Shown here: positions 1-26,575 of the stretch, one piece after another
Layout of the letters: every line of letters starts with the position of its first letter
Position numbering within the stretch: position 1 is the stretch's first letter
IMG/VR virus record: IMGVR_UViG_3300032053_000255
Location: 1 to 35,659 of that record
DNA: 35,659 nucleotides
From: a virus
Reading direction: 5' to 3' (one strand)
Position numbers and translations under genes: made by a program
Notes under the pieces: generated by a model
Told to the model about the DNA's origin: nothing
What the model saw: only the letters and a program-made list of their open reading frames with translations
The model's database searches: none

Positions 1-1840
1 GGATCTTCGTCTCTATATAGTGAGGTCAATCAATATAATGATACTACAAATGTTTGGGCAACTAAAGCTGCCGGAGGAACCGCGAGATCCGGCCTCGGCG
101 AGTTTTCTCTAAACGGTTTTGGTTACTTGTGTAATGGATATACCGGATCAAATTCAAACGAAGTAAACCAATATAATGATACTGTCAACACTTGGACAAC
201 AAAAGCCGCTGGGGGAACCGCTCGCCGGAACTTGGCAGGATTTTCTTTAAATGGATTTGGATATATTTGTGATGGATATGTTGCAACATATTCTAATGAA
301 GTTAACCAATATAATGATGCTACTAATGCTTGGTCAACTAAAGCAACTGGAGGAACTGCTAGATATAATATAAAAGGATTTTCCCTAAATGGTTTTGGTT
401 ATATTTGCGAAGGATATTCTGGTTCTCAAACAAACGAAGTCAATCAGTACAATGATACTGCAAATACCTGGGCCATAAAGGCCATTGGAGGAACCGCGAG
501 AAACGCACACGCAACATTTGCTTTAAATGGATTTGGATATATTGCCAACGGATATACAACAACATATACAAATGAAGTAAATGAATACAACGATGCCTCA
601 AATACTTGGACCACTAAAGCTACTGGAGGAACTGCTAGAAGTCAATTGGCTGGGTTTTCTGTAAATGGATTTGGATATATTGCCAATGGATATACTGGTT
701 CTAATTCTAACGAAGTAAACCAATACCGCAATCATAATCTTTATCAAGTTACAACTTCATACAAGAAATCAAAGAAGCTTCCAATGACTATATCTCTAAC
801 AGCTTCTTGTAATGCTTTCAGCGATCCTTCAATGACATTGCCAGTTCAAATCTCTTCAGATGGTGGTGCAACTTGGTTGTATGGTGAAAGCAATGGTAGA
901 GGATTCTTAAAGACCGGGCAGACCTTAGCTACTGCGCTTACTAAAACTTCAGAAGGATATTATGATTATCAATTGAAGATTGGGATACCAGAATTTGTTG
1001 CTGGAGTTGGTGCAGGGTACTGGGCATTGAAGGCGAATGCCGGTACAGCACGACAGCAGCCCGCTGGGTTTTCATTAAATGGATTTGGTTATATATGCAA
1101 TGGTCACACAGGATCGGCATCTAATGAAGTTAACAAGTATAATGATATTCTGAATTCTTGGGCGACAAAAGCAACTGGCGGAACAGCAAGATGGACACTG
1201 AATGGATTTTCATTAAACGGCTTTGGATACATTTGTGATGGTTGGACTGGATCATATTCCAACGAAGTCAATCAATACAATGATGCTACTGATTCGTGGT
1301 CAACTAAAGCAACAGGAGGTTCAGCGAGGCAAGAACCTGCCGCGTTTTCTTTAAATGGATTTGGATATTTGGCAAACGGTTCGACCGGTTCTAATTCAAA
1401 TGAAGTCAATCAATACAATGATGCTTTAAATACTTGGAGCACCAAAGCTACTGGAGGTACAGCTAGATCCAATCTATCGGGATTTTCTTTGAATGGATTT
1501 GGATATATTTGTAATGGCCAACCAAACAGCGGATATTCAAACGAAGTTAATCAATACAATGATGCCACAAATGCTTGGGCGACTAAAGCTACCGGAGGCA
1601 CCGCAAGAATGCTTCTTTCAGCATTCTCGGTAAATGGATTTGGATATCTTTGCAAAGGTTATAATGGTTCAATCTTAGATGAAGTTAATCAGTACAACGA
1701 TTCTATGAATGTTTGGAACAACAAGGCGATTGGCGGAACATCTAGAAACAGTCTTGAGTCATTTTCTCTGAATGGTTCTGGATATATATGCAGTGGTTGG
1801 ACAGGATCATATTCCAATGAAGTAAACCAATACGTCGAAT
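1..1840 (+). repeat. ~138-bp tandem coding repeats (kelch-like blades)
   Basis: Direct imperfect repeats of about 138 bp (46 codons; one unit is 47) run through the fibre gene. They are recognised by recurring gaagT-Aac-Caata-aatgat and aatggatttggatatat blocks. The array is interrupted from about 730 to 1015 by non-repeat coding sequence. Synonymous differences between copies are numerous, so the array is old or diversifying rather than a recent expansion. Confidence 0.85.
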
Positions 1841-1887
1841 CTGCCGCGATAAATACTCTGTTAGCAACTTTATCAATAAAGGAATAA
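1..1887 (+). CDS. Kelch-like repeat tail fibre/adhesin (5' end outside window)
   Basis: The reading frame is open from base 1, so the true start lies upstream; 628 residues are visible. It is built from ~46-residue repeats with the pattern NEVNQYND..NTW.TKA.GGTAR....FSLNGFGYI.NGYTG, which resembles kelch/galactose-oxidase beta-propeller blades. About five blades (residues 1-235) are followed by ~85 residues without repeats (about residues 245-340). Six more blades (about 341-600) and a short tail follow. Two propellers joined by a spacer is the simplest reading. Position at the head of a structural cluster and the repeat type suggest a receptor-binding fibre or an adhesin displayed on the tail; this is inference. 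It ends in a TAATG overlap with the next gene. It could also be a capsid decoration protein. Confidence 0.8.
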   Translation, partial: GSSSLYSEVNQYNDTTNVWATKAAGGTARSGLGEFSLNGFGYLCNGYTGSNSNEVNQYNDTVNTWTTKAAGGTARRNLAGFSLNGFGYICDGYVATYSNEVNQYNDATNAWSTKATGGTARYNIKGFSLNGFGYICEGYSGSQTNEVNQYNDTANTWAIKAIGGTARNAHATFALNGFGYIANGYTTTYTNEVNEYNDASNTWTTKATGGTARSQLAGFSVNGFGYIANGYTGSNSNEVNQYRNHNLYQVTTSYKKSKKLPMTISLTASCNAFSDPSMTLPVQISSDGGATWLYGESNGRGFLKTGQTLATALTKTSEGYYDYQLKIGIPEFVAGVGAGYWALKANAGTARQQPAGFSLNGFGYICNGHTGSASNEVNKYNDILNSWATKATGGTARWTLNGFSLNGFGYICDGWTGSYSNEVNQYNDATDSWSTKATGGSARQEPAAFSLNGFGYLANGSTGSNSNEVNQYNDALNTWSTKATGGTARSNLSGFSLNGFGYICNGQPNSGYSNEVNQYNDATNAWATKATGGTARMLLSAFSVNGFGYLCKGYNGSILDEVNQYNDSMNVWNNKAIGGTSRNSLESFSLNGSGYICSGWTGSYSNEVNQYVESAAINTLLATLSIKE

Positions 1888-4365: not shown

Positions 4366-4578
4366 TCAAACTATACGGTAGCCCGTATATCTACAATGTT
4401 GACAAGCGATTCTCAATTGCGGCGGCCAGGAAGTTAGCATTGTATTTGGTTCAACGTCCACAAGTTCTTTGCCGCACTTGGGGCAAGCAATTCCATTTGG
4501 TCTAGGATTATATTCGTTGAAGTAATTCTTTCTGGCTATGTTATTCCATTCGTCGAGCGGCGTTAGTTCTTTACTCAT
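4366..4578 (-). CDS. Zinc-ribbon protein
   Basis: 70 aa. CPKCGKEL (residues 33-40) and CQHCRYTGYR (about 59-68) form a four-cysteine zinc ribbon similar to those of many phage and archaeal small proteins. GAGG 8 nt before the ATG is a good ribosome binding site. The start overlaps the stop of the KLP-N gene 4575-4829 (ATGA). The function beyond metal binding is unknown. Confidence 0.7.
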   Translation of the reverse strand: MSKELTPLDEWNNIARKNYFNEYNPRPNGIACPKCGKELVDVEPNTMLTSWPPQLRIACQHCRYTGYRIV

Positions 4579-4829
4579 TTCAAATCCTCAAAGTTTATTG
4601 CTTCAAATTTGTAGTAGTTTGCAATTTGAATATTTGTTTTTGAGATATATATTCCTGGAGAGAAGTCTCTGTGAATAATATCTTTCCAGGTCCAAAGCCC
4701 TTTATGAACAGACGGACTCGTTTCATATATTTTTAAGAACGCATACCGAGAATCATCTTTTAGAACAGCACTATGTTTAACATTATCAAGACTATATTTC
4801 TCACTTAGCTTGTAAGTCTTGTTACTCAT
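4575..4829 (-). CDS. KLP-N family protein (divergent N terminus)
   Basis: 84 aa, last member of block 1 of the paralogous family. The N terminus (K-T-Y-K-L-S) only partly fits the family's K-L-P-x-N. The C-terminal half fits well: PGIYISKTNIQIANYYKFEA followed by the terminal F-E-D-L-K. No own ribosome binding site is visible, but a sigma70-like promoter (4860-4888) precedes it, so it can be expressed separately from the six genes upstream. Confidence 0.65.
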   Translation of the reverse strand: MSNKTYKLSEKYSLDNVKHSAVLKDDSRYAFLKIYETSPSVHKGLWTWKDIIHRDFSPGIYISKTNIQIANYYKFEAINFEDLK

Positions 4830-4859
4830 GTATTATTAAAGCAAAGATACATACTGATT

Positions 4860-4888
4860 ATGATAGCAGAGTTATTTAAGATTGTCAA
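4860..4888 (-). promoter_or_regulatory. Sigma70-like promoter TTGACA-17-TATCAT
   Basis: Minus strand: TTGACA (4883-4888), 17-nt spacer, TATCAT (4860-4865). It overlaps the 3' end of the KLP-N gene 4872-5096, so the -35 box is also coding sequence. It lies about 30 nt before the ATG at 4829. Confidence 0.65.
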
Positions 4889-5096
4889 AAGGAATTAGCA
4901 ACGAGTCCATCCCAGGAATTCCTATAATGTGAATTCTGTTACTGTAAATATAAAGTGTAGGAGACACTTGAGATGCTTGATTTAGACCGGAGTTTTCAAT
5001 CCAGAAGCCGCGCTCGACACCTTCAAAGCGTTCATATCGTGTGATTGATATTTGTTCGAGATGTGTATTGTTCTTTGGAAGTTTTAAATGTTTCAT
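4872..5096 (-). CDS. KLP-N family protein
   Basis: 74 aa. A clear member: N-terminal M-K-H-L-K-L-P-K-N-N-T-H, central P-T-L-Y-I-Y beta strand and hairpin, C-terminal F-D-N-L-K. It contains the 19-nt DNA stretch shared exactly with the genes at 5093 and 11258. Start and upstream stop overlap as ATGA. No known domain is recognised. Size and alternating hydrophobic pattern suggest a small beta-rich globular protein. Confidence 0.75.
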   Translation of the reverse strand: MKHLKLPKNNTHLEQISITRYERFEGVERGFWIENSGLNQASQVSPTLYIYSNRIHIIGIPGMDSLLIPFDNLK

Positions 5097-5299
5097 TTCA
5101 ACTCATTAAAGTTTACTTCGTTGCTTTTGCAAAGTTTTCCCACAACCAGAAACGCATCTTGTGAAAGATAAATGGCTGGCAATTCTTGTGAGCGTTGATC
5201 CATTCCTGAATTTAGGATTGATATCTGGTATGATTCCCAACCATTCAATTCAACTTCTTCAAAGTGCGTATTGTTCTTTGGAAGTTTAAACTTTTTCAT
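5093..5299 (-). CDS. KLP-N family protein
   Basis: 68 aa. N-terminal K-K-F-K-L-P-K-N-N-T-H-F-E is closest to the family consensus; central P-A-I-Y-L-S; C-terminal F-N-E-L-K. ATGA overlaps join it to the genes on both sides. It shares the identical 19-nt DNA stretch (5269-5287) with the genes at 4872 and 11258, evidence of common descent or gene conversion. Confidence 0.75.
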   Translation of the reverse strand: MKKFKLPKNNTHFEEVELNGWESYQISILNSGMDQRSQELPAIYLSQDAFLVVGKLCKSNEVNFNELK

Positions 5300-5523
5300 C
5301 TTAATTCAGTCCACGATATTATTTTTACATTCTTATAATTGGCAATATGTATTTTATCTAGTTGAATATAAACCCCTGGATTATGGATACCGCGCCGTTC
5401 AGTATGCGGAACATTATCTACTATATTATTAAATATTCTTAGAGTATGATTAAATATTGTTTGAAGTCTGTCCGGCATCGCTGGCGTTGGTGTTTTGATT
5501 TTATACTTCTTGTCACAAATCAT
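5296..5523 (-). CDS. KLP-N family protein (N terminus divergent)
   Basis: 75 aa. The N terminus M-I-C-D-K-K-Y-K-I-K-T-P has lost the K-L-P-x-N core. The second half keeps the family hairpin (P-G-V-Y-I-Q-L-D-K-I-H-I) and the end W-T-E-L-R. ATGA overlaps join it to both neighbours. The conserved C-terminal half with a variable N-terminal half suggests a constant scaffold and a diversified face. Confidence 0.7.
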   Translation of the reverse strand: MICDKKYKIKTPTPAMPDRLQTIFNHTLRIFNNIVDNVPHTERRGIHNPGVYIQLDKIHIANYKNVKIISWTELR

Positions 5524-5735
5524 CTTAGGTCTTCCAAGTTTACAGATAGACGTTTACCTCCGGGCCTATCATTTCCAACAATGAATTGCCAGCGGCTAAA
5601 CACAATAAGTATTTCTGTGGCGGTTAGCTGGTGCAATGCTATACTATCGCAGCAAGCCAAATCTGGATCATTACTAAATTCAACGCTGGCAACTTTAAAA
5701 GTTGTATTGTTTATTGGAAGTTTTAAATGTTTCAT
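5520..5735 (-). CDS. KLP-N family protein
   Basis: 71 aa. N-terminal M-K-H-L-K-L-P-I-N-N-T-T-F, C-terminal L-E-D-L-R. I start it at 5735, directly after the upstream stop (TAA-G-ATG), because the K-L-P motif then falls at the same distance from the start as in its paralogues. An in-frame ATG at 5750 would add five residues. Confidence 0.75.
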   Translation of the reverse strand: MKHLKLPINNTTFKVASVEFSNDPDLACCDSIALHQLTATEILIVFSRWQFIVGNDRPGGKRLSVNLEDLR

Positions 5736-5736
5736 C

Positions 5737-5970
5737 TTAAATGTTATCAAAACGAATTACCTTAACCGATCTCCCATTATTGATTAGAATCTGTAAATAT
5801 TCTCGACCAATATAATATTGGTTGTGCCAAAGATCATTATTTGCAACAAGCCCACTCAAGTGGAAATGTTCGGGGCGACATTCTTGATCTTCGTATATTG
5901 AAACATGTTTTGGACGATGTTCCAATTTTCGTAGCTGTAAATTATTCCAAGGAATTTTTAGGATTTTCAT
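5737..5970 (-). CDS. KLP-N family protein
   Basis: 77 aa. N-terminal M-K-I-L-K-I-P-W-N-N, central Q-Y-Y-I-G strand, end I-R-F-D-N-I: a slightly divergent member without the final L-K. It carries several histidines (about residues 18, 23, 35, 37, 49). ATGA couples it to the upstream gene 5967-6281. Function unknown. Confidence 0.7.
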   Translation of the reverse strand: MKILKIPWNNLQLRKLEHRPKHVSIYEDQECRPEHFHLSGLVANNDLWHNQYYIGREYLQILINNGRSVKVIRFDNI

Positions 5971-6281
5971 TGAATTGCAGCAAGATAATCTTTGTGTGCC
6001 TTAATAATCTTAGGGCCAGTAACTAAGTTTCTCCAAGCTAGATACTTTGTTAAAACATTTTTTATCCAGAGTTTTGCTTCTGTCTTTGTCTCAAATCGTT
6101 TGCGCCGTTGTTCATCTAAATTTAAATAGACCATCCAGTCTTCGGGTTCGGGCCGAAGTATTAAATCTCCAACCCAAACTTTATTGACCACAATACAATA
6201 CTGCGGAACAAGCATAGGATTTTTGTCCACGGTTCTTCTATATTCAATCTTAATGGAATTCGCTTTAATTGATTTGGTCAT
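5967..6281 (-). CDS. Hypothetical protein
   Basis: 104 aa, basic, not recognised and without the KLP-N signature although it lies inside block 1. AAGGA 8 nt before the ATG at 6281 decides this start over an upstream ATG at 6308, which would overlap the preceding gene more. The composition (W-V-G-D-L-I-L-R-P, then a K/R-rich helical tail) suggests a mixed alpha/beta fold. Confidence 0.65.
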   Translation of the reverse strand: MTKSIKANSIKIEYRRTVDKNPMLVPQYCIVVNKVWVGDLILRPEPEDWMVYLNLDEQRRKRFETKTEAKLWIKNVLTKYLAWRNLVTGPKIIKAHKDYLAAIQ

Positions 6282-6501
6282 ATTCTGAATCCTTAATAAT
6301 TGTTCCATACTTTCTAAACACGAATTCGATGAAGTCTACAATTGTTTCGCAGTCTTCCAGGATATCGCCTTTGAGTTCTTCTGCCATTTCTTCGGTTTCA
6401 ATTGAGCCAGCCCTAAGTTTCGCGTCTACGGAGAATGCCGCATCGTCGTGGAGTCTTGCCAGAATCTTTAAGAACACATCTTTCACAGTCACGTTATTCA
6501 T
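6265..6501 (-). CDS. Small acidic helical protein
   Basis: 78 aa, not recognised. It is rich in D/E with helical periodicity throughout (E-T-E-E-M-A-E-E-L-K-G-D-I-L-E-D). Strong acidity would fit a protein or DNA-mimic interaction, but nothing specific supports it. ATGA overlap with the upstream KLP-N gene. Confidence 0.65.
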   Translation of the reverse strand: MNNVTVKDVFLKILARLHDDAAFSVDAKLRAGSIETEEMAEELKGDILEDCETIVDFIEFVFRKYGTIIKDSEYDQIN

Positions 6502-6845
6502 TTGAAATGCTTCTCCAATATGTTTATAATGTTTGTATATTCAGGATCGCCGCCCGCACTGAATACTAGCTCCATTCTTATTTGACCAAAGTTCATTCCT
6601 AGATTATTTTCAATATTAACTGAGCGAACACTAAGTGGATTGATTCTAATTGTTCCGTCGCAATTGTCGTAATCATACATCCCGGTAAATTGCGGAGCGA
6701 ATATCGAAAATATCTCTGAGTCAAATATGATTCTTCGATGATCGTGTCCCGCCATATCAACAGAGTCAAGCTGCAATCTTCCATCAGAAAGCAATGTTGC
6801 TATCTTAAACGGACTTATGGTAAGTGGAAGTTTAAATTGTTTCAT
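6498..6845 (-). CDS. KLP-N family protein, long variant
   Basis: 115 aa, the longest member and first of block 1. The N terminus M-K-Q-F-K-L-P-L-T-I-S-P-F fits the family, but the body is extended and the usual F-x-x-L-K end is replaced by a helical E-K-H-F-K. The start overlaps the stop of the 30-aa membrane peptide gene (AAATGA), which carries the strong ribosome binding site for the pair. Confidence 0.65.
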   Translation of the reverse strand: MKQFKLPLTISPFKIATLLSDGRLQLDSVDMAGHDHRRIIFDSEIFSIFAPQFTGMYDYDNCDGTIRINPLSVRSVNIENNLGMNFGQIRMELVFSAGGDPEYTNIINILEKHFK

Positions 6846-6934
6846 TTGAGCAACAACAAAATTAACAGTACCAAAATAGAAACATCAACAAGACCAGCAA
6901 CGAATAAACAAGCGTACCAAGTTTTAGTGTTCAT
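6842..6934 (-). CDS. 30-aa single-span membrane microprotein
   Basis: Sequence type: a short polar N terminus (MNTKTWY), then about 22 hydrophobic residues ending L-L-L-L-K. AAAGGA 9 nt before the ATG is a strong ribosome binding site, and the stop overlaps the next start, so I regard it as real despite its size. It probably sits in the inner membrane; its role is unknown. Confidence 0.6.
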   Translation of the reverse strand: MNTKTWYACLFVAGLVDVSILVLLILLLLK

Positions 6935-6938
6935 TTTA

Positions 6939-7136
6939 TTATTCCTTTTCATTGTTATCAATAAACCAGTTTGTAAGCGGCCCGTGTTTTTGAATCAGTT
7001 TATATGCAGCATCGATGGCATCTTTCACTTTGAAATAATGACTGCCATCCATACTAATACTATGAGCAGCACAGTGCGCTGTTACTATAAGATTTTGTAA
7101 TTCGGCTAAAGCTTTAGCTAGATCTTCTGATTTCAT
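6939..7136 (-). CDS. Hypothetical protein
   Basis: 65 aa, helical, with an H-C-A-A-H motif in the middle; not recognised. ATG at 7136 is used rather than GTG two codons earlier. A poor -35/-10 pair (TTGTTA-18-TATTAT) lies in the 45 nt upstream, so a weak promoter is possible here. Confidence 0.6.
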   Translation of the reverse strand: MKSEDLAKALAELQNLIVTAHCAAHSISMDGSHYFKVKDAIDAAYKLIQKHGPLTNWFIDNNEKE

Positions 7137-7180
7137 AACCACAACATAATATTAAAGATTCACTCAATATAACAAGTATA

Positions 7181-7399
7181 TCACTCTTTAATGAAAAGTT
7201 CAAACAATTTTTCTCTGGCTCGAAGTCTTTCATTGCCCCAGGCTTTCATCTTTCCTCTAAAACAATCATATTCATAGTCGGCTGGACCTAAAGCTTCCTC
7301 AACTGCTTCCTGGTGATAATCATATACATTTCCGTTGATAGCTATATCAAACAACATTGTAAAGATATCTTTGCGGGTCAGTTTTTGTTTCTTGGTCAT
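7181..7399 (-). CDS. Hypothetical protein
   Basis: 72 aa, charged, N-terminal basic (TKKQKLTRK) then acidic/aromatic (A-D-Y-E-Y-D-C-F-R). GAGGG 5 nt before the ATG and an ATGA overlap with the DNA ligase stop show it is translated with the ligase. Not recognised; a ligase-associated role is only positional inference. Confidence 0.65.
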   Translation of the reverse strand: MTKKQKLTRKDIFTMLFDIAINGNVYDYHQEAVEEALGPADYEYDCFRGKMKAWGNERLRAREKLFELFIKE

Positions 7400-8295
7400 A
7401 TATCCCTCGGATCGCGCCAGCCCTTAAATATAGGAAAGCGGGGTAAAGTTTTGGCTCCAGAAGATTGAAATTTATAAGTCAATATTTTATTCAAGTATTT
7501 CTTTTGATGGTTCCAAATCTCGGCTCGCATGGCGTCATCAAATCCTGAGCCGATTCTAAATTCCAGGCCAGACTTACAATCCTTCACAACAAGAGCGCCC
7601 AGAGTATCTGCGCCCGTTAGATTGGCCTTGTGAGAGGATCTCTTCGTTCGACCAAATGCGTCCTTCTCAGCGGCATTCTCGTTGTGCATCTTCTCTTCCA
7701 TGTTAAGTACAATTGCTTCTGCATCAGTAAACCGCTTCATCTTAAGTAAAATCCCTTCACGAATAGTGCTGCGCCCAGTTTTATACTTCCCCTGTAAATC
7801 TCGAATCATTACGCCTTCATAACCTTTAGACAGGCAGAGAGATTCATAGTCTTCAAGTTCTTTGACGTTGTTGATGATCTCTGGAAATAAACAGATGACG
7901 TGCTTGTTGATTAGATTCTTAGTCTCACCAGTATTCCAATGATACCAATCGAGCAAATCTTCCATACGTTTGCAGTAGGGTTTGGCCAAATCGTCTTTGA
8001 CATAATCAAAAGCATAGAAGATAAAGTCCGGTTCGCCAGCTTCGGTCATACACATTGATTGCACTTCATTGAAGGTCTTGCCCGGATATAGAACTTCTCC
8101 ATCTATTTGATCGGGAAGAATTTTTTCAAGAGTGGTTCGGATATAATGATTCGGAAATGGTTTGAAGTTTCTGGTTACAACTTTGTCGCCAATCTTTAGG
8201 CAACGAACGCCATCTAACTTGGTGGTTGCTCCGATAGGATATTTTAAAGTGGTTATATCTTCAACTGCTGAAGCTAAAAGAGGTTTAGTAATCAT
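7396..8295 (-). CDS. ATP-dependent DNA ligase (T7-like)
   Basis: 299 aa. Joins 3'-OH and 5'-phosphate ends at DNA nicks through an enzyme-AMP intermediate. The adenylated lysine is K26 in motif I K-L-D-G-V-R. Further nucleotidyltransferase motifs are D-G-E (65-67), F-Y-A-F-D-Y (93-98), E-G-V-M-I-R-D (160-166) and L-L-K-M-K-R (183-188), followed by an OB-fold C-terminal domain. The length is a little below T7 ligase (~359 aa). It acts in phage DNA replication and repair in the cytoplasm. The 72-aa gene follows with ATGA coupling. Confidence 0.93.
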   Translation of the reverse strand: MITKPLLASAVEDITTLKYPIGATTKLDGVRCLKIGDKVVTRNFKPFPNHYIRTTLEKILPDQIDGEVLYPGKTFNEVQSMCMTEAGEPDFIFYAFDYVKDDLAKPYCKRMEDLLDWYHWNTGETKNLINKHVICLFPEIINNVKELEDYESLCLSKGYEGVMIRDLQGKYKTGRSTIREGILLKMKRFTDAEAIVLNMEEKMHNENAAEKDAFGRTKRSSHKANLTGADTLGALVVKDCKSGLEFRIGSGFDDAMRAEIWNHQKKYLNKILTYKFQSSGAKTLPRFPIFKGWRDPRDI

Positions 8296-8303
8296 TGTAC
8301 ACT

Positions 8304-8513
8304 TTACTTCTTTATAATATTTCTTTTAATTAGTTCATTTTCTAATAACTCTCGGGCCACGGTGAATCCAGTCACATAGCCAATAGCTTCCTGATTGCCC
8401 TCAGTTGGATTTGAATAGTCTGCATTATGTAGTTTCTTTATTACGGCATTAGTATATTCTTGTTCTTTCGAAAGAAACTGGTTGTAAATTTCCAATAAGA
8501 TTTTCTTGCTCAT
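8304..8513 (-). CDS. Hypothetical protein
   Basis: 69 aa, helical, not recognised. AGGG 8 nt before the ATG is a fair ribosome binding site. The centre reads G-N-Q-E-A-I-G-Y-V-T-G-F-T-V-A-R-E-L-L-E, similar in style to small helical phage proteins. It directly precedes the ligase gene with an 8-nt gap. Confidence 0.65.
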   Translation of the reverse strand: MSKKILLEIYNQFLSKEQEYTNAVIKKLHNADYSNPTEGNQEAIGYVTGFTVARELLENELIKRNIIKK

Positions 8514-8522
8514 ATAGTAACC

Positions 8523-8735
8523 CTAAAATAATATATTTAATCGATTGCGGGCACTTATCATATAGTTATAACCAGTTATTGAAATAGAATTGTAATGAAA
8601 AGAGTATCCTTTTTCAACAAAGTTTGCAACTATGTTTCCATTAGCAAGCGCGGTTCCCATAGACCGAATATGCTTTCTCAGTTGTTCCTCAGTCATTTTC
8701 ATATCTTGAAGAACTGCTTGAAGTGGATTAGTCAT
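8523..8735 (-). CDS. Hypothetical protein
   Basis: 70 aa, not recognised. The start at 8735 has GAGG about 9 nt upstream and overlaps the preceding stop by 8 nt; longer upstream frames would run deep into the preceding gene. The first half is helical (M-T-E-E-Q-L-R-K-H-I-R), the second half beta-like (Y-S-F-H-Y-N-S-I-S-I-T-G-Y-N-Y). Confidence 0.6.
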   Translation of the reverse strand: MTNPLQAVLQDMKMTEEQLRKHIRSMGTALANGNIVANFVEKGYSFHYNSISITGYNYMISARNRLNILF

Positions 8736-8913
8736 TTGATTTAACCTCATAATGTAGGCAGCCAAAGTTTTCATCTGCCGGTAAATGGAACTCAAATTTT
8801 TTACACCAAGATTCAAATTCGTCGCAGCAGTCTCTATACACTTCTAGATATACTTTGACCCGGTTAAGTGCGGTGTGTTCTTCTCGAAACAAAGAACGAA
8901 TTGAATCTTTCAT
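8728..8913 (-). CDS. Hypothetical protein
   Basis: 61 aa with four cysteines (two adjacent, C-C-D-E-F, and C-K-K-F, C-L-H-Y), possibly metal-binding but without a standard C-x2-C pair. Charged helical N terminus. Its ATG overlaps the stop of the membrane microprotein gene 8910-9077. Confidence 0.6.
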   Translation of the reverse strand: MKDSIRSLFREEHTALNRVKVYLEVYRDCCDEFESWCKKFEFHLPADENFGCLHYEVKSND

Positions 8914-9077
8914 AGTAATGTTGCCCTTATAATTTCTGCAACAGCGATACCAGCAGTTACATTAAAGAATATAACATTAAACAAATCTCTCTTGGTTCCT
9001 TCTGGAGTTAGATAATTCATTGTGTTCATATACACGGCCAACAAACTTAAAGGCGCTAGAATGATTGCACTTATCAT
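8910..9077 (-). CDS. 55-aa two-span membrane protein
   Basis: Two hydrophobic stretches (about residues 2-17 and 33-50) separated by a short polar loop with P-E-G-T-K-R-D. Both ends couple by overlap with neighbours (ATGA). It is too small for a typical holin and lies in the early region, so a lysis role is not suggested. Confidence 0.6.
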   Translation of the reverse strand: MISAIILAPLSLLAVYMNTMNYLTPEGTKRDLFNVIFFNVTAGIAVAEIIRATLL

Positions 9078-9262
9078 TTTCTAAACTCCTCCACAGTAAA
9101 GACCGACCCCTTGCTAAATCTTGAAGCATTGTAATCCACATTTTCGAATGCTTCTTCTTTTGACTTGGCCCATATACTAGTCCATTCATCGTCGCCCGGA
9201 TCCCAATGATTGCAGAGCCAAACAATAAACTTTTTCTTTCTTGAAGTCTTTTTGGTTTTCAT
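9074..9262 (-). CDS. Hypothetical protein, basic N terminus
   Basis: 62 aa; begins K-T-K-K-T-S-R-K-K-K, then W-L-C-N-H-W-D-P-G-D-D-E-W, a tryptophan-rich acidic strand. AAGGGG ahead of the ATG and ATGA overlap with the upstream gene support the start. It resembles phage proteins that carry a short 'W-x-A-x-S-x-E-E-A' segment; no function is known to me. Confidence 0.65.
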   Translation of the reverse strand: MKTKKTSRKKKFIVWLCNHWDPGDDEWTSIWAKSKEEAFENVDYNASRFSKGSVFTVEEFRK

Positions 9263-9681
9263 TTCTTCCCCTTCAAATTCGAATCAATATACTCTTGAGT
9301 GACACCAGCCTTAGCCAAAAGACTTACAGCAATTCCTTGGCAGGGAACACCAGATATCTGCCAGCCGTCATTCTCCTTGCCCCAAGCATAAGGTCTTGAT
9401 TGTCCGTAAGCTCTGGCTTCTTCTCTGAGAAGAAACACGGCCTCAGTATACCAAGTGTCATCTTCGAATTCAAGCAAGCATTTAGGATAGCGCCCTTCAT
9501 CTTCAAAGTCTTTTACATAGTCTATGATTTCTCGGATTGACTTGGTATGGTTCAAGCAACCTTCAATAACCTCTCGGCGATCCATATAATCGAGGTCTGA
9601 CCGATTGGTGATGATCTTTTGACGAGTCTGGAACAACCAAACACAATTCTGAGTTGCCGCATCTGCCCATTGCTGAATCAT
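9259..9681 (-). CDS. Hypothetical protein
   Basis: 140 aa, acidic, soluble, not recognised. ATG at 9681 follows the preceding stop at once (TAA-T-ATG) and has GGGAG about 9 nt upstream; a TTG five codons earlier is less likely. N-terminal half helical, C-terminal half with aromatic-rich Y-A-W-G-K-E-N-D-G-W-Q. Confidence 0.65.
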   Translation of the reverse strand: MIQQWADAATQNCVWLFQTRQKIITNRSDLDYMDRREVIEGCLNHTKSIREIIDYVKDFEDEGRYPKCLLEFEDDTWYTEAVFLLREEARAYGQSRPYAWGKENDGWQISGVPCQGIAVSLLAKAGVTQEYIDSNLKGKK

Positions 9682-9682
9682 A

Positions 9683-9961
9683 TTACTTTCTCCCAAAGAG
9701 TTCTAAAAGATGCCACACGAAATCATCAACTAGAGACTGCCGGAACACAATGCTATAGTTTTCAAGGATGGGCGATAAGTCCCAGCCAGTGCCTACAATC
9801 GCGTAGTGTCTTTGCCGTGGTTCGTTCTCTGTTCGAACGGCGCACCAGATACAGAATGTTCCATTTTGAATATCAAAATGAACAAAGTCTTCATCAGCTG
9901 GGATGCTGATGTCTGTTTGTTCTCCGGGGCCGTGTAAGGGATATTTGTAGATAGTCAACAT
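9683..9961 (-). CDS. Conserved short phage protein (IYKYPL family)
   Basis: 92 aa. The pattern M-L-T-I-Y-K-Y-P-L ... QNGTFCIWCAVRTE ... IVGTGWDL matches, from memory, a widespread uncharacterised family of phage and bacterial small beta proteins. GGAGG 7 nt before the ATG at 9961 is very strong and overrules the upstream TTG. TAATG overlap with the upstream gene. Confidence 0.75.
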   Translation of the reverse strand: MLTIYKYPLHGPGEQTDISIPADEDFVHFDIQNGTFCIWCAVRTENEPRQRHYAIVGTGWDLSPILENYSIVFRQSLVDDFVWHLLELFGRK

Positions 9962-10302
9962 TATAGTTCCTCCACACAACCATAGCCATTAGAACGATAT
10001 GGAATCAGAGTCTCGCCATCCAGCGCAAAGAAGTCAGCGCCTTGAATTTTGGTGACCTTGATATTGCCCATCACGAAAAACAGCGGCAGCTGATAGTTGC
10101 CAGTTGGCTTGAAGACTTTTAAAGGTTTCTGGCATTCACAAAGAATGAAAGTTTGCTTGGGGCCTTTGACCTCGATTGTTTTCCAAGACTCTCTCTGAGT
10201 GATATCGCCGACCTGATACTTGGCGAAGAGGTTTACAGACTTGGTGAATTGTCCGGTCTTGCGTTCAAACTTATGTACGAAACGTTCTTTGATGATCAAC
10301 AT
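9961..10302 (-). CDS. Hypothetical protein
   Basis: 113 aa, basic N-terminal half, beta-like C-terminal half (Q-L-P-L-F-F-V-M-G-N-I-K-V-T-K-I). Not recognised. First gene downstream of the promoter at 10340-10368, so it heads a transcription unit running to the genes below it. Confidence 0.65.
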   Translation of the reverse strand: MLIIKERFVHKFERKTGQFTKSVNLFAKYQVGDITQRESWKTIEVKGPKQTFILCECQKPLKVFKPTGNYQLPLFFVMGNIKVTKIQGADFFALDGETLIPYRSNGYGCVEEL

Positions 10303-10339
10303 ATCACAAGCTCATAATCAAATCATCTTCTATACTTCA

Positions 10340-10368
10340 ATCTTATCAAAGATAGAAGAAGCTGTCAA
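10340..10368 (-). promoter_or_regulatory. Sigma70-like promoter TTGACA-17-TAAGAT
   Basis: Minus strand: TTGACA (10363-10368), 17 nt, TAAGAT (10340-10345), in an 88-nt gap between genes and about 38 nt before the ATG at 10302. The -35 is perfect, the -10 matches four of six. Confidence 0.55.
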
Positions 10369-10390
10369 ATTATTATTTAATGTAATGATA

Positions 10391-10585
10391 TTAAGAAGTT
10401 ACGTCATATTCTTCTATATGTACTGTCCAGGGCAATCGATCTTTCTTTTTCTTTTTGTCGTCGTCTTTCCAGAAAGTTATAACAGCATCATTGGCTAGTT
10501 GCTCGTTGGCATAGCACCCAATGACATGATATTCGGTGCCGTCGCCCAGCCAGTAGATTTCTTTTATGACAAGATAAACTTTCAT
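10391..10585 (-). CDS. Hypothetical protein
   Basis: 64 aa, mixed: a short beta-like start (M-K-V-Y-L-V-I-K-E-I-Y-W), then a lysine run D-D-D-K-K-K-K-K-D. The N-terminal pattern (V-Y-L-V-x8-G-C-Y-A-N-E-Q-L-A-x-D-A) is common in small phage proteins of unknown function. ATGA overlap with the upstream gene. Confidence 0.65.
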   Translation of the reverse strand: MKVYLVIKEIYWLGDGTEYHVIGCYANEQLANDAVITFWKDDDKKKKKDRLPWTVHIEEYDVTS

Positions 10586-10773
10586 TTGTTCTTGTAATAA
10601 GATTCCTTTGCTGAATCAATCATTGCTTTTAATTCTTCTGATGGCGGCTCAAATATAGAATAATCTTTAAAGAAATCAAAGCGGTGCTTGTAGTATCCCT
10701 TATAGGTTCTATAAAAGATCCCGTGATAAGTATGCCGCTGAAAAAATTTTCTCCAGATTCTTTTATTTGTCAT
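10582..10773 (-). CDS. Small basic protein after tRNA-Thr
   Basis: 63 aa, rich in R, K, H, F and Y (H-G-I-F-Y-R-T-Y-K-G-Y-Y-K-H-R). I start it at 10773, nine nt past the tRNA 3' end; a longer frame would overlap the tRNA. Not recognised. The start lacks a Shine-Dalgarno. Confidence 0.6.
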   Translation of the reverse strand: MTNKRIWRKFFQRHTYHGIFYRTYKGYYKHRFDFFKDYSIFEPPSEELKAMIDSAKESYYKNK

Positions 10774-10781
10774 ATAAAATT

Positions 10782-10856
10782 TGGAGCATCTGTCTGGACT
10801 TGAACCAGAAAAATCCTGATTACAAATCAGGTGCATTACCATTATGCTACAGATGC
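10782..10856 (-). tRNA. tRNA-Thr (anticodon UGU)
   Basis: 75 nt with encoded CCA. Acceptor GCATCTG/CAGATGC, D arm GCAT-AATGGTA-ATGC, anticodon stem CCTGA/TCAGG around TTTGTAA (anticodon TGT, reads ACA), T arm TCTGG-TTCAAGT-CCAGA, discriminator T. All stems pair fully. The 5' end directly abuts the stop codon of the gene at 10857-11153, so it must be cut out of the operon transcript. It may supply a codon common in this AT-rich phage. Confidence 0.95.
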
Positions 10857-11153
10857 TTATTTTAAACCCCCTCCCCTAAAAAACTGTTCGCTCAATTCTT
10901 CCTGCATCAATTTATGTAGATGCTCATAGACTTGCTTGTCAATATACAAGTTCTTAAAGTAATCTAAGTCTTGTGCATCTAGAGTTTTGTGATCTGTTGC
11001 AACATTTTTCTTGATAATATCAGCCATCTTTTCATTAATGTCAGCTATCTTTTTCTCCAAATCTTCCATTGTCATCTGTATATTTTTAAACTTTCTTTTT
11101 GCTTCTTCGATCTTTTTCTTCTCGGAGTTTGACTGCGTTCTTCTCGCTGGCAT
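10857..11153 (-). CDS. Coiled-coil protein, start nested in membrane gene
   Basis: 98 aa, highly charged, with a long heptad-like helix (M-E-D-L-E-K-K-I-A-D-I-N-E-K-M-A-D-I-I-K-K). AGGA 5 nt before the ATG at 11153 favours this start, which lies 68 nt inside the upstream membrane protein gene in another frame. The ATG at 11075 would avoid the overlap but has no ribosome binding site. Confidence 0.65.
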   Translation of the reverse strand: MPARRTQSNSEKKKIEEAKRKFKNIQMTMEDLEKKIADINEKMADIIKKNVATDHKTLDAQDLDYFKNLYIDKQVYEHLHKLMQEELSEQFFRGGGLK

Positions 11154-11241
11154 TCTTATCCTGTAGGAAGGTTAAAACGATTCCGAGTACTCCACCAAGT
11201 TGCAGAAGGACTACGAGTATGAGTGCGGTTGCTTCATCCAT
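11086..11241 (-). CDS. Single-span membrane protein with basic tail
   Basis: 51 aa: M-D-E-A-T, then ~20 hydrophobic residues (A-L-I-L-V-V-L-L-Q-L-G-G-V-L-G-I-V-L), then a charged tail ending R-R-S-K-K-K-V. Orientation is probably N-out, basic tail in the cytoplasm. Its 3' part overlaps the coiled-coil gene. Topology recalls an inner-membrane spanin subunit, but no outer-membrane lipoprotein partner is present. Confidence 0.6.
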   Translation of the reverse strand: MDEATALILVVLLQLGGVLGIVLTFLQDKNASEKNAVKLREEKDRRSKKKV

Positions 11242-11257
11242 AAGTACAAAGAGCTTA

Positions 11258-11485
11258 TCATAGAAGTTCTGAAAGATCAAATACTATTCGTTTATTTCTA
11301 CCAACCAATCGTATTATTTTATGACGATATGCGGTATCAATGAATATAGATGGCACCCTATAGTCACTAGAGTTGTGGTGCCCCCTTCCAATGAAATATG
11401 AAAAGAATCTAATCTCGTGATTAACAACAACCCGAAAGGCATCATATATAATATTGTTCTTTGGAAGTTTAAAAGTTTTTAACAC
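11258..11485 (-). CDS. KLP-N family protein
   Basis: 75 aa, GTG start overlapping the upstream stop by 7 nt. N-terminal L-K-T-F-K-L-P-K-N-N, central P-S-I-F-I-D strand, end F-D-L-S-E-L-L. It contains the identical 19-nt stretch (11452-11470) found in two members of the other block 6 kb away. Last member of block 2. Confidence 0.7.
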   Translation of the reverse strand: MLKTFKLPKNNIIYDAFRVVVNHEIRFFSYFIGRGHHNSSDYRVPSIFIDTAYRHKIIRLVGRNKRIVFDLSELL

Positions 11486-11700
11486 AGGAGTTCGCCGGTA
11501 TTAAATACTATTTGCTTTCTGCCGTTGTACATTACAAGTTTCAATGGTATTGTTTCATTTCTTTTCTGAATATAAATTGTTGCTGTATCGGTACTTGGCA
11601 TATGATGGTTGTCCATAAACCGAAACATCCGCCCACTGATAATCCTCAACACTTTGAAATGTGTTTTGTTTTGTGGAAGTTTAAAGTTTCTGGTGCTCAT
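11479..11700 (-). CDS. KLP-N family protein
   Basis: 73 aa. N-terminal R-N-F-K-L-P-Q-N-K-T-H-F-K, central A-T-I-Y-I-Q, end F-N-T-G-E-L-L-C. ATGA overlap with the upstream member. Basic in the second half (K-R-N-E-T-I-P-L-K). Function unknown. Confidence 0.75.
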   Translation of the reverse strand: MSTRNFKLPQNKTHFKVLRIISGRMFRFMDNHHMPSTDTATIYIQKRNETIPLKLVMYNGRKQIVFNTGELLC

Positions 11701-11903
11701 CTTAAATTTTCAAATCCAAATTCAACATTTGGTCTATTCCCGGTTACCGTCATTCCGTGTTTGCTAAAGTAAACCGCGACGTGCCGGTCTAAGTCTTTAA
11801 ACAGTTTGAACAGGTCAAAAGAAAATACACATCCGGGTTCTGTATGAAAGACAAATGCAAATCTGGTGTCATTGTGTGGGATGATATAATGATGAGATTT
11901 CAT
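11697..11903 (-). CDS. KLP-N family protein
   Basis: 68 aa. N terminus M-K-S-H-H-Y-I-I-P-H-N-D-T-R-F keeps P-x-N-x-T-x-F but not K-L; centre H-V-A-V-Y-F-S-K-H-G-M-T-V; end F-G-F-E-N-L-R. ATGA overlaps on both sides. Phenylalanine-rich middle (V-F-S-F-D-L-F-K-L-F). Confidence 0.7.
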   Translation of the reverse strand: MKSHHYIIPHNDTRFAFVFHTEPGCVFSFDLFKLFKDLDRHVAVYFSKHGMTVTGNRPNVEFGFENLR

Positions 11904-12136
11904 TTTAACTGATCCAAATCAAAACTTATCCCGCAGTTAAGCCTTGTAATAATCGTCAGTCTTCCACGGAAAATGCGGATATTTGCAATATTTTGAATAT
12001 CATCTGCCACGGTCAAATTAAAATGATCATAGTCAGTGCCAGTCAGCATATTAGGATTGATCACAGGCCGAGTCATTGTCTTGACATGACTGCTTCGTAT
12101 ACGATATTTTTGTCTCGGTGGATCGTAGTAACTCAT
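11900..12136 (-). CDS. KLP-N family protein (divergent)
   Basis: 78 aa. The N terminus (M-S-Y-Y-D-P-P-R-Q-K-Y-R-I) has lost the K-L-P-x-N motif; the C-terminal half keeps the hairpin (A-N-I-R-I-F-R-G-R-L-T-I-I) and F-D-L-D-Q-L-K. ATG at 12136 overlaps the upstream stop (ATGA), which decides it over a TTG three codons earlier. Confidence 0.65.
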   Translation of the reverse strand: MSYYDPPRQKYRIRSSHVKTMTRPVINPNMLTGTDYDHFNLTVADDIQNIANIRIFRGRLTIITRLNCGISFDLDQLK

Positions 12137-12405
12137 CGTAGACAATCAAATTTAATATTAAATTTGATATCAAATTTAATTCCGGCCTTCTTTGGAACCG
12201 CACCAACATTTCCACCCATACTAATACATGCTAGACCGTGTTCACGAATAACTAAATCATAGTGCATTCCTACTTTATAGAGGTCATCCACCCCCGCATC
12301 TACTCTATGCACGGTTACAAGTTCAAAAAAGTTAGTACTCGGTTCATAACTAATAGACTTGAACGCGGTTTTATTAATCGGCAAGCTATACCATTTTCTG
12401 GCCAT
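12133..12405 (-). CDS. KLP-N family protein with C-terminal tandem repeat
   Basis: 90 aa. N-terminal W-Y-S-L-P-I-N-K-T-A-F-K-S-I. Near the end, K-F-D-I-K-F-N-I-K-F-D-C-L-R arises from three 12-nt tandem repeats, which duplicate the family's terminal K-F-D element. The start follows the upstream stop directly (TAA-ATG). Confidence 0.7.
   Translation of the reverse strand: MARKWYSLPINKTAFKSISYEPSTNFFELVTVHRVDAGVDDLYKVGMHYDLVIREHGLACISMGGNVGAVPKKAGIKFDIKFNIKFDCLR
12148..12177 (-). repeat. 12-nt tandem repeats forming two overlapping palindromes
   Basis: AAATTT recurs at 12148, 12160 and 12172. The spacing makes two perfect 18-bp palindromes, AAATTTAATATTAAATTT (12148-12165) and AAATTTGATATCAAATTT (12160-12177). 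They are coding sequence in the KLP-N gene, but could also bind a dimeric protein. Confidence 0.8.
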
Positions 12406-12603
12406 TTAATTCAGCTCAGAGAAGTAAAAGGTTTTCTCTTTTCCGTTCGGCTGATTCTTAACCGTCACCCGGTCTACATAAATGTAGATTCGGATCTCGT
12501 CTTCGTTCTTGAACACTTTCGAAGAGGCGACAGTAATACAATCGTCGGTCACATCAATTACCTCAAAGCCTGTATCGTTTTGAGGAAGCTTATACCACGC
12601 CAT
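12406..12603 (-). CDS. KLP-N family protein
   Basis: 65 aa. N-terminal M-A-W-Y-K-L-P-Q-N-D-T-G-F-E-V-I, central I-R-I-Y-I-Y-V-D-R-V-T-V, end F-Y-F-S-E-L-N. It is the most compact member, so it may show the minimal fold. AGGAG about 8 nt before the ATG is a strong ribosome binding site, the only one of this strength in block 2. Confidence 0.75.
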   Translation of the reverse strand: MAWYKLPQNDTGFEVIDVTDDCITVASSKVFKNEDEIRIYIYVDRVTVKNQPNGKEKTFYFSELN

Positions 12604-12616
12604 AATGTTTCTCCTA

Positions 12617-12829
12617 TTAAAAATCCGTCCACCAAAATATATTTGTATTGTTGTTTTTATCTGAGGTATTCACCCAGATATATTTTTCATTAATAGATAT
12701 TCTTATATCTTTCTGTATAGGGCTTGATCCGAAAACGTGTATAGCTCCACCACTCACCAGGGCGCTGGGCCACACTATAACTCGTGTTATTCCAATATTA
12801 TTCACGGGAACATTGCAAATCTTCTCCAT
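12617..12829 (-). CDS. KLP-N family protein (first of block 2)
   Basis: 70 aa. N-terminal C-N-V-P-V-N-N-I-G-I matches the P-x-N-N part; centre I-R-I-S-I-N-E-K-Y-I-W-V; end F-W-W-T-D-F without L-K. No Shine-Dalgarno; the promoter -10 at 12836-12841 is only 6 nt from the ATG, so transcription would start at or near the start codon. Confidence 0.65.
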   Translation of the reverse strand: MEKICNVPVNNIGITRVIVWPSALVSGGAIHVFGSSPIQKDIRISINEKYIWVNTSDKNNNTNIFWWTDF

Positions 12830-12835
12830 ACTTTA

Positions 12836-12864
12836 ATCATCTCACAAGTTAACAAATATGTCAA
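12836..12864 (-). promoter_or_regulatory. Sigma70-like promoter TTGACA-17-GATGAT (block 2)
   Basis: Minus strand: TTGACA (12859-12864), 17 nt, GATGAT (12836-12841). Placed in the only gap upstream of KLP-N block 2, so it probably drives the seven-gene block. The short distance to the ATG at 12829 suggests a leaderless message. Confidence 0.5.
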
Positions 12865-21577: not shown

Positions 21578-21661
21578 AAACTCCGACTGGATTCGAACCA
21601 GCATCTCCTCGCAACTCGATCAACTGATGCGCTTTGTTTTAACCAATTAAACTACGGAATT
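21578..21661 (-). tRNA. tRNA-like element with abnormal anticodon arm
   Basis: 84 nt. Acceptor AATTCCG/CGGAGTT pairs over 7 bp (one G-T), D arm GTTT/AAAC with a GG-containing loop, T arm GCTGG-TTCGAAT-CCAGT. The anticodon region is not standard: only CGCA/TGCG pairs, enclosing 14 nt instead of 7, and no type II variable arm can be drawn. No CCA is encoded. It may be a degraded tRNA, a tRNA with an insertion, or a processing signal. Anticodon not assignable. Confidence 0.55.
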
Positions 21662-24205: not shown

Positions 24206-24235
24206 AGAATAGCACAGAATCGAACCGCGAGTCAA
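24206..24235 (-). promoter_or_regulatory. Weak sigma70-like promoter TTGACT-18-TATTCT
   Basis: Minus strand: TTGACT (24230-24235), 18 nt, TATTCT (24206-24211). It would give a ~200-nt leader containing the structures at 24018-24179 before the gene at 23996. Confidence 0.35.
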
Positions 24236-24265: not shown

Positions 24266-26164
24266 TTAGGAGCTTACTTCTTTTGCTGTTACAAAGATGT
24301 CAACTGGATCAATTACCAACAAAAGATCCCTGGCCGATGTGATATCATTCACAACCGGCTTGGCGAAGAAATCAATCTTCTCATATTTGTTTACCCAACT
24401 GGCCGGAACAAATGGTTCAGTAATTTCAATCTTGCCGTTTGCGTGATCGATTGTTCCCATCTTTGCAATTCGAACAAGTTGATTATTGTAGGGATCAATT
24501 TTAAACAGAGACATTATATCACTCTTAAAAGAATCTTCAGCAAAGAAGCACTTGGTTACCGGGTCAACATAATAAAACATTGAAGAATAAATTGCTTTGC
24601 CGTATGGGTTCTTGTTGTCATATACATCGAGAGCGTTAAGAAACTTGAGAGCGTATGTTTCTTTTAACTCAAGAGTTGGTGTAATAGTCTTCTTCAATCT
24701 GATTGTTGTCAAGTTAGAATGTATACTTGGATCTAAATTATCAATCATCTCAACGAAGTCGGAATAGATGAAGCCCCGTTCGAACTTCTCTAGGTTTACT
24801 TCATTGAAATTGAGAATGGCATTATATACCAGATATTGAATTTCTTGTTTTGTTTTGGTGGTCAAACGATAGTTAAACTTCACGTCCGTCTTTACTACAA
24901 GATTTACATAATCCGGATCAACAATCACTGGTTCTTGTGTCAGTGTGCAGCGAGGCTTTACAATACCATTTATAATAACATCCTTGTCTGTGTTATCTAA
25001 AACATATCCTTCTGCTGGCTTAATACACAAGAAGACTCTGCCATATTCTGCCGGGTCATTATCTTCGCCGCCCCACACCGTAATGGAATCAATTCTTGGA
25101 TAAAGTCGTTGCACAAGCTGTTCAAAGTCCAACTTTGTGACGGCTCGGTTTTGCATCTCAAAATTGATCGGCGCAGTATTTTTAATACTCTTCAATGATT
25201 CTTCGTCTTCGCCGCCGGTAGATTCTGATACTGTTTCAATTATATCTACGAAATGATTGGTATGTTGATTATAACTATCTGGTAATATATAAAATGGACC
25301 GCCAGACGAAAACTCTTTAATTCCATTTGGCGTCGCGCCATTACAAACAACATACTCAACTATTACAATATTGCCCGCTTTAATTGAAGCTGATAGGACA
25401 TCATCACCAAAATATATTTCATAAAGATCTCCGGCTGATTGTTGAAGATAATAAGCCTTAGATGTCGAAGTCAGTTCGGTAATATCTGTTGCTCGGCTGT
25501 ATAATGTCCTGGCTTGATTTTTGTCTGACTCTTGAACTGTTACTGTCATCAGATTAATATCGACGCCCGAATTTGGTATAACAAACTTTGCTCCCGTATC
25601 AGACGTGACAGGAAACCGGTGCGTTAGCAATGTTCCTTCGTGTACCACAACTTCAACTTCAAAATATCCATACGGAAATGCAAGGGTCGAAACATCATGA
25701 AAGTCACTGGCAGAACCATCTGGGTTAACAAGATAAAGAGTTTTGGGTTCCGTAATTACAAATTCAAACTTCGTATCATCTGTATTATAGCCAACAAACT
25801 TTGCCTCTTTTGGAATTTGAACTGTTGCAGGAATTTCGCTGCCCGATTGAGAATCCGGCCCCATCTGAAGTTTTAGAGTTGCATTAGAAGATTTCTTAGA
25901 CTTTGGAAGATATCCAAGCATCTTAGCTCTTGCAAGAACCGAATCTCGGAGCTGGGCGCTATCAAGAAACATTTCACTTGCTACCATATTGAGATAGAAA
26001 GCGTTGTACGCCGAGTAATATGCGAGGATGTCGATCAGATACGCAAATCCACTGCCTTCAAAATCGGCGTCCATCAATTCTGGCTTTTGCCGCAAAAAGT
26101 CTTTTAGATTCTGCTTAATCTGACTAAAATCTAATTCTGATACTTTGATAACTGGGTTTGTCAT
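24266..26164 (-). CDS. 6: Baseplate wedge protein, T4 gp6-like
   Basis: 632 aa (T4 gp6 is 660). Baseplate J-like protein: the N-terminal F-S-Q-I-K-Q-N-L-K-D-F-L-R and L-A-Y-Y-S-A-Y-N-A-F-Y-L-N-M segment is characteristic of T4-type wedge gp6, followed by a long beta-rich body. In T4, gp6 dimers form the core ring of the baseplate together with gp7 and gp53. AAGGG before the ATG, overlapping the gp25 stop (GTAAATG). Last gene of the operon. Confidence 0.88.
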   Translation of the reverse strand: MTNPVIKVSELDFSQIKQNLKDFLRQKPELMDADFEGSGFAYLIDILAYYSAYNAFYLNMVASEMFLDSAQLRDSVLARAKMLGYLPKSKKSSNATLKLQMGPDSQSGSEIPATVQIPKEAKFVGYNTDDTKFEFVITEPKTLYLVNPDGSASDFHDVSTLAFPYGYFEVEVVVHEGTLLTHRFPVTSDTGAKFVIPNSGVDINLMTVTVQESDKNQARTLYSRATDITELTSTSKAYYLQQSAGDLYEIYFGDDVLSASIKAGNIVIVEYVVCNGATPNGIKEFSSGGPFYILPDSYNQHTNHFVDIIETVSESTGGEDEESLKSIKNTAPINFEMQNRAVTKLDFEQLVQRLYPRIDSITVWGGEDNDPAEYGRVFLCIKPAEGYVLDNTDKDVIINGIVKPRCTLTQEPVIVDPDYVNLVVKTDVKFNYRLTTKTKQEIQYLVYNAILNFNEVNLEKFERGFIYSDFVEMIDNLDPSIHSNLTTIRLKKTITPTLELKETYALKFLNALDVYDNKNPYGKAIYSSMFYYVDPVTKCFFAEDSFKSDIMSLFKIDPYNNQLVRIAKMGTIDHANGKIEITEPFVPASWVNKYEKIDFFAKPVVNDITSARDLLLVIDPVDIFVTAKEVSS

Positions 26165-26560
26165 TTACTTGACCCTTTCTAGAAAAAACTCAATAGTCAG
26201 TGGAGCAATCTGATTCTTGATGCTGAATGTAATTGTAACATCATATCCAAGCTCTTCCTGGCTGTCCATCTCGACTTCAACGGATATTAATTCAATTCTT
26301 GGCTCATAAACCGTTAAAACTTCTTCAATTGTCTGTTGAATAGATAATGCAGTAAAGAAAGACATTGGCTCAAATAGAAGGCTTCGGATGCCGCAACCAA
26401 ATGAATCGTTGAAATGTCTTTCATAAAAGTTTGTAAGTACTATGTTTTTTACGGCCCTTTTAACTGAATCGATGTCTTTGATGTACACCAAGTCCTTGGT
26501 AGTGGGATGTACAAGAAAATTCAAATCGAGATCTTTATATGTTCTAGTTCTTGGTGGCAT
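26165..26560 (-). CDS. 25: Baseplate wedge protein, T4 gp25-like
   Basis: 131 aa (T4 gp25 132). V-K-R-A-V-K-N-I-V-L-T-N-F-Y-E-R-H-F, F-G-C-G-I-R-S-L-L-F-E and Y-E-P-R-I-E-L are hallmark motifs of the gp25/gpW lysozyme-like fold, which joins the wedge to the sheath. No Shine-Dalgarno; a CATAAATA box ends 7 nt before the ATG. Confidence 0.93.
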   Translation of the reverse strand: MPPRTRTYKDLDLNFLVHPTTKDLVYIKDIDSVKRAVKNIVLTNFYERHFNDSFGCGIRSLLFEPMSFFTALSIQQTIEEVLTVYEPRIELISVEVEMDSQEELGYDVTITFSIKNQIAPLTIEFFLERVK

Positions 26561-26567
26561 ATGTAAC

Positions 26568-26575
26568 TATTTATG
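26568..26575 (-). promoter_or_regulatory. T4-late-like box CATAAATA before gp25
   Basis: Minus strand, one mismatch to TATAAATA, 7 nt before the gp25 ATG. It overlaps the stop codon of the gp5-like gene, so chance is possible; listed because the spacing matches other late genes here. Confidence 0.3.

Follow-up and report, generated by a model that had tools for sequence, protein, structure and literature searches.

In archaeal rudiviruses (SIRV1/2/3), the small viral protein AcrID1 occurs as numerous diverged paralogues that are encoded near one another; SIRV2 carries 12 AcrID1 homologues, and 26 of 35 homologues belong to four viruses, mostly close together in few rudiviruses (PMC11065993). 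The founding function of AcrID1 is anti-CRISPR, and several of the copies have early promoters (PMC11065993). In T4-like myoviruses, a contiguous run of ORFans is found in the ORFan-rich region of cyanophage S-PM2, as in T4-like hyperplastic regions (PMC4503421). Here we describe two blocks of small minus-strand genes in a phage known solely from metagenome DNA; the window, i.e., the whole stretch that was analysed, is the entire IMG/VR record IMGVR_UViG_3300032053_000255 of 35,659 bases. We propose, at a probability of roughly 0.45, that the blocks encode small proteins that bind host or defence proteins, a lineage-specific set that is expressed early, is diversifying, and can be compared with the AcrID1 set of SIRV2.

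The contig and its small-gene region

The right half of the window is filled by T4-type baseplate and neck genes, recognised by PHROG and Pfam matches: a gp6-like protein (24266–26164), a gp25-like protein (26165–26560), a hub/lysozyme (26571–29516), and tail-tube cap and head closure proteins. From 24 kb on, the baseplate genes share the strand of the arrays. The nearest annotated relatives of gp6 are found in Pelagibacter, Methylophilales, and Synechococcus phages (Kyanoviridae), at 32–34% identity, and judged by its baseplate genes the contig is a fragment of a T4-like (Kyanoviridae-like) myovirus. The sole close IMG/VR record is the 6.2-kb L003 (92.5% DNA identity), with the next ones at 37–38%. 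When the hub/tail-lysozyme of the window (26571–29516) is aligned with that of L003 (2674–5610), the first ~440 residues are almost identical and the remainder has strongly diverged; the neighbouring proteins are 100% identical, and on this alignment the break is a sharp boundary of recombination or selection. At the left end, cut by the end of the contig, is a Kelch-like repeat protein (1–1887, plus strand) that is probably tail-fibre-like (Pfam E 2.3e-10, below Pfam's cut-off; PHROG virion structural E 8.9e-22).

A dense run of small minus-strand ORFs occupies 2.8–24 kb and includes a DNA ligase (7396–8295); MazG, dCMP deaminase, SLOG/GTP-binding, and ParB-like matches are also present among the array neighbours. 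Ligase, MazG, and dCMP deaminase neighbours are typical of early or metabolic phage regions. The small ORFs of the run that were tested have no relative in the loci of related viruses with which they were compared. Two tRNA genes lie on the same strand. A tRNA-Thr (TGT; 10782–10856; Rfam 71.3 bits) overlaps the start of the ORF at 10582–10842, which therefore probably begins further downstream, and a second tRNA (21578–21661; ARAGORN tRNA-SeC; Rfam tRNA 41.3 bits) has the anticodon TCA, would read UGA, and is a possible opal suppressor in a phage where 31 of 88 called genes stop with TGA.

A family of small proteins in two blocks

Sixteen minus-strand ORFs make up the two blocks, nine in block 1 (4575–6845) and seven in block 2 (11258–12829). 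A preliminary description had placed about fourteen KLP-N paralogues here, seven in each block; the coordinates agree, and block 1 contains two unrelated ORFs in addition. For each of the 14 proposed members, an HMM was built from the remaining ones, and the held-out protein was scored against 1000 shuffles of itself. Eleven outscore every shuffle (0/1000), and thus align beyond chance. In block 1, these are b1_1 (4575–4829, 84 aa), which has lost KLP-N and belongs by its C-terminal half (PGIYI..IQIAN..INFEDLK; also 0/1000 with the C-terminal model described below); the core members b1_2 (4872–5096, 74 aa; MKHLKLPKNNT...FDNLK) and b1_3 (5093–5299, 68 aa), which are 37% identical across 59 aa; b1_4 (5296–5523, 75 aa), again by its C-terminal half (1/1000 with the C-terminal model); the core member b1_5 (5520–5735, 71 aa from ATG); and b1_6 (5737–5970, 77 aa). 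Block 2 contributes b2_1 (11258–11485, 75 aa, GTG start), the core member b2_2 (11479–11700, 73 aa), b2_3 (11697–11903, 68 aa), b2_5 (12133–12405, 90 aa), which belongs by its N-terminal part, and b2_6 (12406–12603, 65 aa), the shortest and most typical member.

The three other proposed members do not reach significance, either in the leave-one-out test or with a model built from the 11 well-supported ones: b2_4 (11900–12136, 78 aa from ATG; scored in the profile tests as ORF 11900–12145) is matched by 40/1000 and 225/2000 shuffles, b2_7 (12617–12829, 70 aa) by 86/1000 and 89/2000, and b1_9 (6498–6845, 115 aa) by 267/1000 and 174/2000. By eye, b2_4 is a likely member (IRIFRGRLTIIT..ISFDLDQLK) and b2_7, the first gene of block 2, a possible one (VPVNN), while b1_9 has only the gene start in common (MKQFKLP, codons AAA CTT CCA). 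The start of b1_9 is overlapped by ATGA by a ~30-codon ORF (6842–6934, minus strand; MNTKTWYACLFVAGLVDVSILVLLILLLLK) that likely encodes a membrane peptide. The unrelated ORFs within block 1, at 5967–6308 (113 aa) and 6265–6501 (78 aa), are scored at or above the real value by 1543 and 1921 of 2000 shuffles, respectively.

With a model restricted to the last 34 residues, support is at ≤1/1000 for 8 of 12 members and at 7–8/1000 for another two; b2_4 (as 11900–12145) and b2_5 (743/1000) fail. As this model lacks the start motif, its support is independent of that motif. When every frame of the window is searched, the full family model retrieves the 14 and nothing else (next best E 0.97). Going by these scores, 11 members are of common ancestry, b2_4 and b2_7 are plausible, and b1_9 shares the start only. 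Most pairs are 20–30% identical or less, with no matched pairs apparent between the blocks, and by these identities the members are diverged almost to saturation.

Conserved ends and repeated DNA

Among the 11 alignable N-termini, the P of the KLP-N motif is found in all and the N at +2 in ten, in agreement with the preliminary description. The same account had the N-terminal and middle parts varying between kept ends. This applies to the middle, which differs in length and charge (the pI of the members ranges from 4.7 to 10.4 and the charge from -3.5 to +7.8), and to the ends, but not to the N-terminus, where KLP-N is the most conserved stretch.

At the gene starts, 154 codon pairs are identical versus 125.8 expected from codon usage (P=0.017), a modest effect driven by CTT (leucine) and AAC (asparagine), and the exact start motif has 3 matches at the DNA level versus 0 expected. 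The F-x-x-L-K/R ends show no excess codon identity (P=0.22), which implies that the C-terminal motif is a constraint on protein, and the start motif probably reflects both protein constraint and DNA history. Three minus-strand DNA repeats of up to 54 nt (5052–5105, 5255–5308, and 5691–5744; 72–80% identical) span the stop/start overlap at three junctions of block 1 and extend into coding sequence, and the repeat search yields weaker copies at 11440–11477, 11652–11689, and 12561–12598 on the same strand. The PeSL promoter/terminator cassettes of T4-type phages reportedly also place repeated DNA at the junctions of small-gene regions. Unlike such cassettes, the present repeat crosses from a stop/start overlap into coding sequence, most junctions overlap or abut, and no terminator-like stem-loop is found on the minus (coding) strand within either array, so that a PeSL cassette was rejected. 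Separately, the N-terminal tag that three ORFs of a ligase relative (G001) seemed to share proved to be a repeated promoter, which is read as codons if translation is taken from an upstream start; this promoter-like repeat, TTGACA..TTGGATNATNTNTG(G/T)CATCAT, precedes unrelated small genes on the minus strand in L152 of G001 (11453, 15571, and 18458) and in L156 (9217). Because that tag is a promoter read as codons, the KLP-N start is not read as protein-only here, and weight is put on the codon test.

The main rival to a diversifying set of binding proteins is that the array is largely a by-product of turnover at the DNA level, where the start/junction repeat would promote recombination within a hyperplastic region of ORFans, with little function for any single protein. 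The long junction repeats and the excess of identical start codons fit this explanation, as does b1_9 with its shared gene start, but the C-termini are kept as protein with synonymous change, including that of b1_2, whose end is uncoupled to the next gene. Frames that are still open at such divergence furthermore suggest purifying selection on the fold, and we consider DNA turnover an unlikely main cause.

Predicted fold

Structure prediction of single members, proposed earlier as a check, was successful in part. With eleven aligned paralogues, AlphaFold2 models b2_6 acceptably as a five-stranded antiparallel meander sheet followed by a short C-terminal helical turn (pLDDT 75.4, pTM 0.57), with an average pLDDT of only 58 for the first ten residues, including KLP-N. 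The model of b1_2 is poor (pLDDT 56), with three more confident C-terminal strands. Foldseek returned no match below E 0.001 in PDB or BFVD, and with VIA the best Z was 5.9, where levivirus coat proteins (Z 5.4–5.9) and the KhtT N-domain (Z 5–6) score in the range of unrelated models. A paralogous family with kept ends and a diversified middle is supported by the profile scores and the spread of pI, and the small β-sheet scaffold predicted, with moderate confidence, for b2_6 is consistent with it.

Promoters, gene coupling, and timing

Directly before block 2 is a σ70-like promoter, TTGACA-17-GATGAT with TG (12836–12864, minus strand), and the ATG of b2_7 sits at its expected transcription start. 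A second one, TTGACA-17-TATCAT with TG (4860–4888, minus strand), lies across the FDNLK codons of b1_2, ahead of b1_1, with which block 1 ends. An upstream promoter of its own was not found for block 1, where the nearest strong upstream site is that at 10368. Minus-strand TTGACA boxes with a TATnAT-like partner 16–18 bases on occur at 24235, 19013, 17689, 16466, 12864, 10368, and 4888. Taken as a whole, the promoter scan is slightly above shuffles (47 vs 40.2, sd 6.7). The late-promoter sequence of T4, TATAAATA, is absent from both arrays. By analogy with T4, the host-type promoters point to early transcription by the host polymerase, and the array proteins are probably made early.

Six of the 11 direct family-to-family junctions are ATGA overlaps; the remaining ones are a 7-nt overlap, gaps of 0, 1, and 13 nt, and a 43-nt gap that contains a promoter. 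The suggestion that most genes are coupled by ATGA thus applies to six junctions and not to the other five, and joint synthesis is supported for the overlapping runs. An assembly of the members into a hetero-oligomer, with sheets joined edge to edge in, e.g., a small ring or shell that works as one machine, could draw on balanced synthesis from the six coupled junctions and on the conserved termini as a common interface. Dimeric levivirus coat sheets are also found among the weak structural neighbours, an arrangement that is simply common. The genes are, however, split into two blocks, with unrelated ORFs inside block 1 and a promoter before b1_1, and the low pairwise identities come without matched pairs between the blocks. 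Overlapping starts are also common across the region, which makes the coupling unspecific, and a joint machine appears even less likely than DNA turnover.

Search for relatives

Profile searches of Pfam, PHROGs, NCBIfam, PADLOC, and PDB gave no significant match to the family, the one weak PHROG match being to a virion structural protein (E 0.01, one of fourteen members). Annotated phages searched with tblastn and blastn gave no family match, and no relative was confirmed in IMG/VR, with back-translated peptides of one protein and of a four-member alignment, or in genomes. Start patterns, either degenerate or at the codon level, had matches in IMG/VR and in one genome per species that were rejected as chance by their family-profile score. 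A profile that recovers all 14 members in the window, i.e., its own training set, finds no match at E 1 or E 10 in 46 whole viral contigs related by ligase or gp6 or in four annotated Kyanoviridae genomes. The HMM search advocated in the preliminary description therefore yields no further phage relative in the libraries, the annotated phages, or the 46 viral records; the latter are mostly fragments, none close except the 6-kb L003, so that all that follows from the absence is a family that is not widespread. Since many records are fragments and near-window records may have been left out, unsampled sister phages may well carry the family. In a weak test, as gene calling did not recover all known members in the window itself, the largest group of arrayed genes in ~560 kb of four relatives numbers three. 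Taken on these searches, the family is most likely lineage-specific.

A role as small virion or virion-assembly components, to which the PHROG match and the baseplate genes, with their shared strand from 24 kb on, could point, is very improbable, as that match covers a single member without significance and the arrays have host-type promoters and metabolic neighbours rather than the baseplate cluster.

A possible role in host takeover

For the diversifying set of binding proteins, the following course can be envisaged. One family of small all-β proteins would have grown by tandem duplication in a T4-like phage, split into two clusters, and then diverged almost to saturation. Its members would be made early, from a minus-strand small-gene region with host-type promoters, and each would form a small antiparallel β-sheet with kept ends (K-x-h-K-L-P-x-N-x-T and F-x-x-L-K/R), whose variable middle may bind a different host or defence protein in each member. 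Lineage-specific growth to about a dozen, with a kept scaffold and a wide spread of charge, is most simply explained by binders with different partners. The common ancestry of 11 members, their clustering and coupling, the promoter-like sequences, and the lack of detectable relatives are shown, whereas we infer the early timing, the fold and, most of all, a role in binding or inhibition. A more specific version, of which we are doubtful, is a variable repertoire in a bacterial phage, where the junction repeats would be recombination seams and the diversified middle of one β scaffold would give a dozen early inhibitors, directed at different factors or defences of the host.

Small-ORFan regions of phages are among the main sources of host-takeover and anti-defence proteins still to be explored, and where one family fills two operon-like runs, diverged variants of a single scaffold are available as a natural panel. 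If the members hit different targets, they would illustrate how duplication provides a phage with new inhibitors, and further members could be sought by their conserved ends.

Comparison with known systems

As for the S-PM2 region, the present locus is a contiguous ORFan run in a T4-like myovirus, but no paralogous family is reported for S-PM2 (the term "paralog" is absent from PMC4503421), whereas about a dozen of the ORFans here form one family. That no described phage system resembles the locus appears to hold for bacterial phages, as an array this large was found neither in the literature searched nor, in the weak test above, in the ~560 kb of relatives; it is not correct for viruses at large, given the 12 AcrID1 homologues of the archaeal SIRV2. 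The AcrID1 set belongs to an archaeal virus, and the present family is without a match to any Pfam family. DUF1374, which we take to be the Pfam family of AcrID1, is not among the Pfam matches of any member up to E 1, and the AcrID1 fold is not among the listed PDB structural matches, none of which is significant. By sequence, the family is thus not AcrID1, and the two may be similar only in their working.
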